Below, piece by piece: positions 51,848-60,892 of a stretch of DNA of 64,000 nucleotides (position 1 is the stretch's first letter; every line of letters starts with the position of its first letter). The notes beneath the pieces are model-generated. The model was not told the origin of the DNA and searched no databases. It was given only the letters and a program-made list of their open reading frames with translations. Origin of the DNA: Prochlorococcus sp. AG-442-B03 (GTDB lineage Bacteria > Cyanobacteriota > Cyanobacteriia > PCC-6307 > Cyanobiaceae); contig QCPU01000002.1 of assembly GCA_003212395.1 (NCBI GenBank), positions 1 to 64,000 on the forward strand. Direction: 5' to 3'. Both the position numbers and the translations under genes were made by a program.

Positions 51848-52055
51848 AAAAAAATCCTATTGAAGTGACTTAAATTTTTTATTTTGATATACCAATTTAT
51901 ACTAAAAAGTCTCGTTTAGTTTTTTTATCAATTAATTTGAACCTATTAATCTATTTATTACAGGTAAAAATAGATAATTAAATATTTATTAAGCTAATGA
52001 CCCTTTCTTTAGCAGAAAATCCACGTTATAAAAAAAATAAACACTATTTATAGAA

Positions 52056-52358
52056 ATGAATAAATTAATAGCCTTGATTTTATTCCCATTTCTTGTGATC
52101 TCGTATGGGGCAAAAGCAAATGATAACTTTTCCGTTGAGATAGAGGCACTTACACTAGTGATGGAGCAATATAATGAAGACACTAAAACAAGTGTTGAAT
52201 TAGGCATAAAAGATAAAAAGCCAAGTTACATGGCTCTTAAACAAGACGAATGCAACGCTACTGTTGAAGTTACAGAGAAAACAGGATTAGAAGTTGTAAA
52301 TACTGAATATTTCGATGTAAATGTCTGTTTGAAAGAAATCTATAAAGTAATCAACTAA
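52056..52358 (+). CDS. Small secreted protein
   Basis: 100 residues. The signal peptide ends near GAKA (about residue 21). The mature part is acidic with two cysteines (CNATVEVT and VNVCLKE), which could pair. Function unknown; it lies 208 bases after the repair operon and immediately before the hairpin-rich gap. Confidence 0.6.
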   Translation: MNKLIALILFPFLVISYGAKANDNFSVEIEALTLVMEQYNEDTKTSVELGIKDKKPSYMALKQDECNATVEVTEKTGLEVVNTEYFDVNVCLKEIYKVIN

Positions 52359-52376
52359 ATAAGCAGTCAATAAAAA

Positions 52377-52382
52377 TATAAT
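52377..52382 (+). promoter_or_regulatory. Perfect -10 hexamer before candidate small RNA
   Basis: TATAAT at 52377-52382 is a consensus -10. It stands 19 bases ahead of the first of several hairpins, so transcription would start near 52389. No good -35 is visible, which is common in this group. AT-rich DNA makes chance matches likely. Confidence 0.4.
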
Positions 52383-52388
52383 AAAACA

Positions 52389-52542
52389 AAGAAATTAAAG
52401 AGGTCTTTTACTTAAAGAAGGAAAGACCTAGAGACCTAACAGAAAACTTTGGAACGGGTTCTGTATAACTAATAAATAACTACAAAAGAAATGTAGAGGT
52501 GTAATTAAAATTACAAAAACTTAAATTATTTTTTAAATAATT
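52389..52542 (+). ncRNA. Candidate small RNA made of serial hairpins
   Basis: Four perfect hairpins follow one another without a gene. AGGTCTTT/AAAGACCT (52401-52408 with 52422-52429), ACAGAA/TTCTGT (52439-52444 with 52459-52464), CTACA/TGTAG (52480-52484 with 52492-52496) and GTAATT/AATTAC (52501-52514). An AT-only hairpin, AATTATTT/AAATAATT (52524-52542), could end the transcript. The strand is inferred from the TATAAT box; the reverse is possible. It is not one of the cyanobacterial RNAs I can recognise, such as Yfr1, 6S, SRP or RNase P RNA. The 3' edge is set at the last hairpin. Confidence 0.4.
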
Positions 52543-52687
52543 ATTTCTTCTTTGATAATGTTTTTGATTCTTCCCTAGACATTAAAGCTTCAATTTGAGC
52601 AAGAACTTTTTGAAGTTCATCCGTTTTTGTAAGAGATGCTTCTGCTACTTCTCTTAATTTTTCTAACTGTTCTTTAGTTTTATCCAT
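52541..52687 (-). CDS. Small coiled-coil protein, 48 residues
   Basis: ATG 52687 to TAA 52541: one continuous amphipathic helix, KTKEQLEKLREVAEASLTK then ELQKVLAQIEALMSREE. It is highly charged and leucine-spaced like a coiled coil. The AT hairpin at its stop could be a terminator. Function unknown. Confidence 0.55.
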   Translation of the reverse strand: MDKTKEQLEKLREVAEASLTKTDELQKVLAQIEALMSREESKTLSKKK

Positions 52688-52697
52688 GATAAATAAA

Positions 52698-52853
52698 TTA
52701 GAAATTAACCACTTTTAAAAATGGTTTTAATACAGATTTTTCACTCCCACACAGATTCATATTCTCTCTTTTTTTTATAAAGTCAAATAAATTCCTCTTT
52801 ATTAAGGTTTTATGAGGACTTCCAATTAATTGATTATTTATTATTGAAAGCAT
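52698..52853 (-). CDS. Possible small protein, 51 residues
   Basis: An open frame of 51 codons, basic, MLSIINNQLIGSPHKTLIKR then a cysteine and KSVLKPFLKVV. It ends 10 bases before the coiled-coil gene on the same strand. No homology recognised; could be chance. Confidence 0.35.
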   Translation of the reverse strand: MLSIINNQLIGSPHKTLIKRNLFDFIKKRENMNLCGSEKSVLKPFLKVVNF

Positions 52854-52883
52854 AAGATTACCTGAAATAGAAATACTTTTAAA

Positions 52884-52973
52884 TTATGAAGTAAATACGG
52901 GCAATCCTATTGTTGCAGTTGTTATAAGAGCCCCTGCAAAAATCAAGAAAGGTAGAAAAGGGTAGTTTTTCAA
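52884..52973 (-). CDS. Possible tiny membrane protein, 29 residues
   Basis: From a TTG at 52973: LKNYPFLPFLIFAGALITTA then TIGLPVFTS, one membrane helix with proline-rich start, like the minute photosystem subunits. Non-ATG start and small size limit confidence. It lies in the region downstream of pstB. Confidence 0.35.
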   Translation of the reverse strand: MKNYPFLPFLIFAGALITTATIGLPVFTS

Positions 52974-53080
52974 AGATAAACTTACTAATTCGAAATAACT
53001 ATATAGGTATTTATACCTTTTGTCTACCCTTTATCCGTTTTAAAGCTTAAAATCTTTCTTTTATAAGTAAAAATTAAAAA

Positions 53081-53890
53081 TTAACCAAATTTACCAGATA
53101 TGTATTCTTGAGTAGTTTTTTCTTTTGGAGAGTTAAAAATTTTCTTTGTCGAATTAAATTCGGCAAGATAACCAACCTTTCCTCCATCACCATCTTCATA
53201 TTCAATAGCATTAAAAAATGCAGTCATATCACTAACTCTTAATGCCTGTTGCATATTATGGGTAACGATAATTATTGTGTAATTCTTCTTAAGTTCATGC
53301 ATCGTCTCTTCTATTTTTAAAGTAGATATAGGATCCAAAGCTGAACATGGCTCATCCATTAGAATTATTTCAGGCTCAATAGCAATAGTTCTAGCGATAC
53401 ATAATCTTTGTTGTTGTCCGCCAGATAAGGAGTAACCACTATCTTTTAATTTATCCTTACATTCGTCCCATAAAGCAGCCTTTCTTAGTGAACTTTCCAC
53501 TAATTCATCCATATCTCCCGTAAAGCCATTAATTCTTGCTCCAAATGCAATATTTTCGTAAATAGATTTAGGAAAAGGATTAGGTTGTTGAAAAACCATC
53601 CCAATTCTTCTTCTTACTTCAACTGGATCTACTCTTTTATCGTAAATATTAGTTCCATCAAAGAGGATAGTCCCTTTTAACGAACAATTAGGAATTAAAT
53701 CGTTCATCCTATTTAATGATCTAAGAACAGTTGATTTACCACAACCTGAAGGTCCAATCAGGGAGGTTATATTTCCTTTTTTAAAATTACAAAAAACATT
53801 TCTTACTGCTTCAAAAGTTCCATAGCTAATAGAGACATTCTCAAGAGATAAAATGATATTCTTTGGTGTTTTTTTATTAGTTTTAATCAT
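53081..53890 (-). CDS. pstB: Phosphate ABC transporter ATPase
   Basis: 269 residues. Walker A GPSGCGKS (46-53), signature [16 protein letters not shown], Walker [14 protein letters not shown]. The SLNRMNDL and [10 protein letters not shown] stretches are typical of PstB. It energises high-affinity phosphate uptake. It follows pstA with no gap: pstA stops at 53891. Confidence 0.98.
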
Positions 53891-60360: not shown

Positions 60361-60892
60361 TTTAAATACTTTACTTATACAAACTTATTTGATTAATCTT
60401 GCGTTTGGGAAGTGTTGCTATAGAGAAAACCGAATTAAACAATTTATAATCAGCTATGACAAAAATTAAAAATTGCAAGTTTAGATTGATTTTTCTTCAC
60501 TTTAATTTTCAATTTGATACATGATGAAGAAAAAACTTTTTTAATTTTTTATCAACATGAGCTTCTGGTATAGATACCTTATCTTTTTTTAAAAGTAATG
60601 ATCCCACAGTTATAACAACAGATTATGATACTTTTTAAAGTATATTTTATTTTTTTTGATGAAGTATTAATACTTAAAATTTTTTCCAGAAAAGCTTGTT
60701 TTGGTAATGCTCCCGAAGAGTTATCCACTTTTTAAGCGTTTTTCAACAGGGTTTTCCACAATATGTTGATTTAATTTGAATTTCTATGTGCAAAATAAAA
60801 TATTATCTTCTTTAGAGTAAAAGCTATCCACAAATTGTTTTTGGGATCACTATGATTTCCAGTGTCTTTAAATAATTTTAAGTATAAATCCT
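60361..60892. other. Mostly gene-free region with DnaA-box-like sites and palindromes
   Basis: About 530 bases without a convincing gene. On the plus strand it holds TTATCAACA (60549-60557), TTATCCACT (60721-60729), TTTTCCACA (60752-60760, a match to the cyanobacterial DnaA box) and CTATCCACA (60824-60832). It also has ATACTTTTTAAAGTAT (60628-60643) and the perfect palindrome AAGTATTAATACTT (60662-60675), which share the half-site ATACTT. This could be a DnaA-binding or regulatory region. No dnaA or dnaN is near, so I do not call it an origin. Confidence 0.45.
60509..60607 (-). CDS. Possible 32-residue peptide in the gene-free region
   Basis: From a GTG at 60607: LLLKKDKVSIPEAHVDKKLK then a hydrophobic end. 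It has no ribosome site and overlaps one DnaA-box-like site. Probably a remnant or chance. Confidence 0.2.
   Translation of the reverse strand: MGSLLLKKDKVSIPEAHVDKKLKKFFLHHVSN

Follow-up and report, generated by a model that had tools for sequence, protein, structure and literature searches.

What does the gap of 182 bases (52359-52540) between two convergent ORFs of Prochlorococcus sp. AG-442-B03 encode, and on which strand? The window is the whole analysed stretch of 64,000 nucleotides, and within it the gap is free of genes, as stated in the initial annotation. That annotation had proposed a plus-strand small RNA, transcribed from a TATAAT box and folded into five serial hairpins, numbered here 1 to 5 in plus-strand order. 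The TATAAT is present (52377-52382), and the inverted repeats were found where they had been placed. Upstream of the gap lie an Lhr-like helicase ORF and a metallophosphatase ORF. The locus adjoins an ABC-transporter ATPase ORF, presumably pstB (Table 1). The flanking 48-aa ORF has no Pfam match at cut-off; two neighbouring relatives of it, about 0.6 kb apart, occur in three genomes of genus g56 (L040, L049, L044, L048, L042, L050). The failure to match known RNAs was confirmed: no Rfam family reached its cut-off in this region, and a scan of 51850-53080 at E up to 5 returned only three sub-threshold matches, all outside the element. A known Prochlorococcus ncRNA, Yfr17 (Rfam RF02365, 91.6 bits), is located in the window at 60605-60871 (-).

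Table 1. Coordinates and strands of the features at the locus (window positions) and of two comparison loci (positions of the fetched sequences L127, L128 and L125).
Feature	Position	Strand	Basis
ORF, 100 aa, one flank of the gap	52056-52358	+	
Predicted sRNA, ~75 nt (start and end are predictions)	52391..52466	-	R1 match, fold
3' terminator-like hairpin, then CTTTAATTT (hairpin 1)	52401..52429	-	block identity, fold
5' seed hairpin ACAGAA/TTCTGT (hairpin 2)	52439..52464	-	block identity
Loop seed CCCGUUCCAAAG, complementary to the glutamine-II core UGGAACGGG	52447..52458	-	
-10-like element, here TATTTAT, consensus TATtAAT, 22 nt past the box	52472..52478	-	block identity, alignment
NtcA-type box GTAATTTTAATTAC (GTAN8TAC; hairpin 4)	52501..52514	-	block identity, strict-box count
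ORF, 48 aa, other flank of the gap	52541-52687	-	
ABC-transporter ATPase ORF	53081-53890	-	
R1-type RNAs in L127 (G258)	474-555; 740-818	+; -	
Glutamine-II riboswitch in L127 (G258)	371-309	-	
sRNA/Yfr11 pair in L128 (G146)	718-860; 1053-1130	-; +	
sRNA/Yfr13 pair in L125 (G146)	703-800; 552-629	-; +	

A query of 221 bases (E up to 0.01) found a match in 253 of the genus's 266 genomes; the weakest matches are short or located elsewhere. The alignment shrinks to a core of about 120 bases in divergent genomes. The fetched loci gave 112 matches with 104 unique sequences, 62 of them below 87% identity. Eight of these 62 were set aside: L124, whose normal-site copy is decayed, and others that are extra, truncated or partial. 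Among the remaining 54 sequences, mean pairwise identity is 0.91 in hairpin 1, 0.92 in the linker, 0.91 in hairpin 2 and 0.90 in hairpin 4. A -10-like block reaches 0.88 between a spacer of 0.60, which coincides with hairpin 3, and a start region of 0.63. Hairpin 5 and the TATAAT fall to 0.47 each and the surroundings of the TATAAT to 0.43-0.48; the flanking coding ends show 0.72 and 0.81. Use of all 62 sequences leaves the order unchanged (hairpin 1, 0.85; linker, 0.88; hairpin 2, 0.85; -10-like block, 0.86; hairpin 4, 0.86; hairpin 3, 0.57; hairpin 5, 0.45; TATAAT, 0.42). The five hairpins do not form one set: hairpins 1, 2 and 4 are kept, hairpin 3 is a variable spacer and hairpin 5 is unconserved. 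Hairpin 4 is a palindrome resembling a protein site, kept as the sequence GTAN8TAC.

Of the 104 unique sequences, 41 have the TATAAT; of the 62 divergent ones, 4 do. A plus-strand sRNA starting from it would have a fitting distance to the first hairpin, and 52385-52560 folds better on the plus strand (-32.7 kcal/mol, z -3.2; 1 of 200 shuffles equally good) than on the minus strand (z -2.0; 5 of 200). However, the terminator scan found no plus-strand terminator, and block conservation led to the rejection of this transcript, which is extremely unlikely. To judge from the alignments, the hairpins are real and the strand first chosen for them is wrong. A small-RNA gene does appear to exist in the gap; the strand, promoter and extent assigned to it, including the unconserved TATAAT and hairpins 3 and 5, did not hold.

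Read on the minus strand, the kept blocks follow each other as GTAN8TAC, 22 nt, TATtAAT, about 6 nt, an open-loop hairpin, the linker, a GC-containing hairpin and a T-rich tail. Such blocks and the variable spacers between them fit a putative minus-strand promoter plus transcript. The minus-strand covariance model R1 matches 52391-52468 (-) with 102.5 bits. A strict GTAN8TAC precedes the loop motif in 89 of the 104 unique sequences; among the 62 below 87% identity the count is 50. Sequences with an unrecognised loop motif were scored as boxless. GTAN8TAC by itself is not rare (10 in the window vs 6.6 expected), so the argument for the box is built on conservation and place. Control of the sRNA gene by NtcA is likely. 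For the prediction of the start, the box centre was put at -41.5, as reported for NsiR4, which sets the start at 52466 and the length at about 75 nt. The distance from the box centre to ACAGAA is 43 nt, and the start is a prediction.

Over 61 sequences, 94.7% of the cells are paired, vs 46.9-60.2% with slid partners; for the seed hairpin the value is 96.2%. Wobble counts on the minus strand (51 G.U vs 17 A.C cells) say little about the strand, because 42 and 10 of them come from helix end pairs; the remaining 9 vs 7 barely favour the minus strand. Covariation among close relatives, initially suggested as a check, was almost uninformative since most stem pairs hardly vary, with a double change in 1 of 14 pairs. 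RNAalifold did not predict the seed hairpin and preferred the upstream copy of AGGUCU as partner of the terminator. The simple terminator scan did not list the hairpin at 52401-52429. The predicted sRNA alone folds with -13.1 kcal/mol (z -1.5; 16 of 200 shuffles as good), a modest value. AGGUCU stands twice in tandem at 52424-52437 (-), once in the linker and once in the terminator stem, each copy being able to pair with AGACCU. The copy in the linker hardly varies, and a switchable terminator is possible. A coding sequence was not supported: the core contains stops and differs in length by single bases, and in the window no open frame across the seed is longer than 30 codons. Stronger support is given by distant relatives that carry another stem and terminator and retain the loop.

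The loop recurs on three further sequence frames, two of which carry NtcA-type boxes at the same place. In the first, from genus g56, the frame reads TTATCAGAAAACCCGTTCCAAAGTTTTCTG and is followed by another terminator, GGGAGGTCA..TGACCTCCC, of variable spelling. R1 matched 21 genomes of this genus, and ACCCGTTCCAAAGTTTTCTG was present in all ten loci fetched at the main site; the box position reads GTATCAATTA(A/T)GTC, without a strict box, in the two loci tested. The second frame was seen as an additional copy in six of the genomes fetched from the window's genus; it has a different terminator and the loop CCGTTCCAAA. Its box is strict in one genome and GTTN8TAC in five. The third frame, GAGTTAACCCGTTCCAATTTGTTGACTC (class iii), was found at six loci in 5 of 20 genomes searched, the window's own genome included (C15:24147), and a strict box precedes the seed by 59-60 nt at all six. 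Class iii was likened to the window's class by loop and box; it is scored weakly by R1, and a common origin is therefore only putative. It is present in three of ten R1-negative near-complete genomes (G112, G156, G167) and in G164, which has a weak R1 match. In the window's genome, the class-iii hairpin is followed downstream by a 45-aa ORF and by an ORF made of near-identical tandem repeats (L319, 1607-2140, +) and could therefore be a leader instead of a free sRNA.

Of the 24 exact CCCGTTCCAA sites in 20 genomes, the window's class accounts for 4, class iii for 6 and the g56 class for 2, which leaves 12 others. The longest open frame over the seed spans 24-51 codons at the 12 family sites vs 181-702 codons at the 12 others, none of which has a strict box 45-70 nt upstream. 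Three of these 12 others (L305, L313, L315), which are one homologous site inside a frame of 698-702 codons, fold weakly with the motif in a loop. A cluster in G258 (L127) combines an R1-type frame bearing a Yfr1-type loop, CTCCTCACAC, with another, weak match to R1 and a riboswitch of the glutamine-II type. L127 is an intermediate that scores 44.8 bits with R1 and 36.2 bits with Yfr10, below the cut-off of 43; it is Yfr10-like on the other strand. In both R1-type RNAs a strict GTAN8TAC precedes the model start by 44-45 nt. The cluster suggests loop swapping on a shared NtcA-driven frame. A Yfr2 paralogue, considered because of GTGTGAGGAG in L127, was ruled out by comparison with MED4 Yfr2-5 and by Rfam scans. 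The three other frames and L127 together imply that stem and terminator vary, while the loop and mostly the box are kept. A minus-strand sRNA gene is very probable. At the level of sequence, the comparison demonstrates conservation of the predicted gene, its strand, the box, the seed hairpin and the terminator-like hairpin.

R1 matched 202 of the 266 genomes of the genus and 77 of the 87 near-complete ones. A family-wide draw yielded matches in 83 of 400 genomes and 3 of 59 genera. Weak or second R1 matches carried the seed at 16 of 18 fetched loci. The seedless L256, sole match in genus g4, and L263, a second match in G431, were not counted as family members. The exact 20-mer of the loop hairpin occurs in at least 118 stretches of named genomes; among the matches listed (80), the titles name Prochlorococcus or uncultured Synechococcaceae. 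It was not found in viral contigs. G033 has Rfam Yfr matches at the published places of MED4; its copy is situated at 689149-689225, where Table 1 of PMC2518516 (Yfr8-Yfr21) has no ncRNA; nothing is entered there between 664930 and 972284.

G146 possesses three copies, two of them adjoining Yfr11 (L128) and Yfr13 (L125) on the opposite strand, similar to the reported clustering of Yfr RNAs in islands. G146 and G119 have lost the exact seed from the normal-site copy and retain it in another copy. An element of this kind could also be the terminator and 3' end of the message of the 48-aa gene, a processed 3' UTR with no separate gene. The RNA shares its strand with this ORF, which is kept beside it in many genomes, and ends with a terminator-like hairpin. 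Yet a conserved box, a -10-like element and a variable spacer lie between ORF and RNA, a terminator has no need of the invariant open loop, and in G146 the 48-aa gene is on a different contig from the copies L125 and L128, which adjoin Yfr13 and Yfr11. A processed 3' UTR is very unlikely.

The loop seed holds the only CCCGTTCCAA of the window, where 0.01 are expected. Its part CCCGUUCCA is the exact reverse complement of UGGAACGGG, the 3' loop of Rfam Glutamine-II. In the glutamine-bound form of the riboswitch, the UGGAACGGG strand pairs with a 5' CGUUCA as a pseudoknot. The window's genome contains five type 2 glutamine riboswitches, two with the core UGGAACGGG, one with AGGAACGGG and two with AGGACGGG and a matching CGUCC strand. 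GGAACGGG is found in three of the five, and all nine bases are matched in only two. Small ORFs follow all five; their peptides score above the cut-off of Pfam DUF4278 in two cases and not in the other three. Duplexes of the seed hairpin with the five riboswitches reach -22.5, -24.4, -17.1, -22.0 and -22.5 kcal/mol as plain duplex energies. As strong were 8, 5, 170, 14 and 8 of 3654 window slices, counts that include slices holding the RNA's own complement. Of 1000 mononucleotide shuffles, 1 attained the mean over the five and 41 attained the best single energy; the latter result is weak. Type 2 riboswitches are described in passages of PMC6316151 as multi-copy, limited to marine picocyanobacteria, linked to DUF4278 and activating expression with glutamine.

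Main targets of the NtcA-driven sRNA could instead be other mRNAs, the riboswitch match being coincidental or secondary. The loop is conserved past CCCGUUCCA, and the additional bases (CCAAAG) are unaccounted for by the riboswitch. Against the riboswitch reading, GGAACGGG is not enriched overall, with 10 sites genome-wide vs 13 for a reversed-pattern control; the pattern TTTGGAACGGGTT with up to 2 mismatches showed no excess either (47 vs 75 sites). The ten sites comprise three in riboswitches, two complementary to seed RNAs and five inside ORFs, three of them in sense in rpoA-, pdxA- and ftsZ-like ORFs (named by reading). Moreover, 1-4 riboswitches and no seed RNA by exact motif were found in seven of the ten R1-negative near-complete genomes (G023, G026, G037, G109, G117, G144, G261). 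Also against the riboswitch reading, the window's own class shows no linkage to a riboswitch, and no compensatory change between sRNA and riboswitch was visible. Against other mRNAs as main targets, the riboswitches are the only leader sites with GGAACGGG in the window's genome, and riboswitches lie near two unrelated seed loci. The g56 RNA follows a riboswitch by 620-625 nt on the same strand in all four genomes compared (G372, G391, G420, G431), behind a YRG-type ORF that is DUF4278-like by eye. A riboswitch lies within about 0.6 kb at three of the six class-iii loci. The chance that one locus falls within 0.7 kb of any of five riboswitches in 1.7 Mb is about 0.4%, a rough estimate made after the fact. 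Other mRNAs as main targets are rather unlikely, and the riboswitch is on balance the favoured main target.

The main reading, with a probability of roughly 0.6, is an sRNA activated by NtcA that, under nitrogen starvation, represses small-peptide genes controlled by riboswitches. We infer transcription, NtcA control, pairing in the cell and repression. A minus-strand sRNA of about 75 nt would be transcribed from its own promoter, and an NtcA box near -41.5 would cause it to be made when nitrogen is short. Its 5' hairpin would offer CCCGUUCCAA in an open loop, where it would pair in trans with the UGGAACGGG of type 2 glutamine riboswitches, their 3' loop strand. This pairing would compete with the aptamer's own CGUUCA strand and bar the riboswitch from the glutamine-bound ON form. 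Small peptide genes of the DUF4278 type behind the riboswitch would then remain off during nitrogen shortage. A wider proposal is tentative: dispersed NtcA-driven hairpin sRNAs on interchangeable frames may jam the whole class of glutamine riboswitches in trans by a shared loop, with loops as exchangeable modules (L127).

Among open papers, with subscription papers and supplements outside the scope, no report was found of an sRNA against glutamine riboswitches or of an NtcA-driven sRNA in Prochlorococcus. No Prochlorococcus paper naming Yfr22-27 was found, a lone 'Yfr26' being Yfr2 plus a citation mark. These numbers presumably exist, since Yfr28 and Yfr29 are new in PMC7368042. The RNA itself may already be listed by Voigt 2014, among TibYfr1-5 (PMC3898218) or among 152 MED4 candidates (PMC7368042). 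NsiR4, IF7 and PirA, which in other cyanobacteria provide RNA-linked fine control of nitrogen assimilation, have been described as missing from Prochlorococcus. If the main reading is true, a conserved NtcA-type sRNA supplies such a layer of nitrogen control in a very abundant marine phototroph, and the conserved core of a riboswitch class is the target of a trans-acting RNA.

sRNAs with an NtcA box are a known kind, represented by NsiR4; directing one against the core of a riboswitch class would be a novel variation. According to PMC9196836, NsiR4 is an NtcA-activated sRNA of other cyanobacteria that represses gifA and pirA. Its NtcA box is reported in PMC6316151 to be centred near -41.5, and both papers report NsiR4 as absent from alpha-cyanobacteria and Prochlorococcus. 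As predicted, the present RNA would resemble NsiR4 in being a free-standing small RNA and in its box, which was here placed to centre near -41.5. Repression of nitrogen-surplus genes at times of starvation is proposed for the present sRNA in likeness to NsiR4. In contrast, the proposed target here is a riboswitch core instead of a ribosome-binding region.

Yfr10, Yfr1 and relatives (Rfam RF02362) share the order of a 5' open-loop hairpin and a terminator hairpin as well as the stem core CAGAA/UUCUG, but have the loop CUCCUCACAC where this sRNA has CCCGUUCCAA. The Yfr10 model gave no match in 51850-53080 at E up to 5, the loop there being CCCGUUCCAAAG and not CUCCUCACAC. R1 gave no match to the MED4 regions of Yfr10, Yfr12 and Yfr18 (L143, L144, L146) at E up to 10, and the Cyano-1/Yfr2-5 model (RF01701) had no match at the locus. 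The glutamine-II riboswitch (RF01704), the proposed partner, has the CGUUC element and the nitrogen theme in common with the sRNA; its aptamer model found no match in the window. A precedent for an sRNA and a riboswitch acting on one mRNA is given by OmrA/OmrB and the AdoCbl riboswitch on btuB of Escherichia coli, as outlined in PMC11162775. Distinct pathways are used there, whereas the present sRNA is proposed to pair inside the conserved aptamer of several riboswitches.
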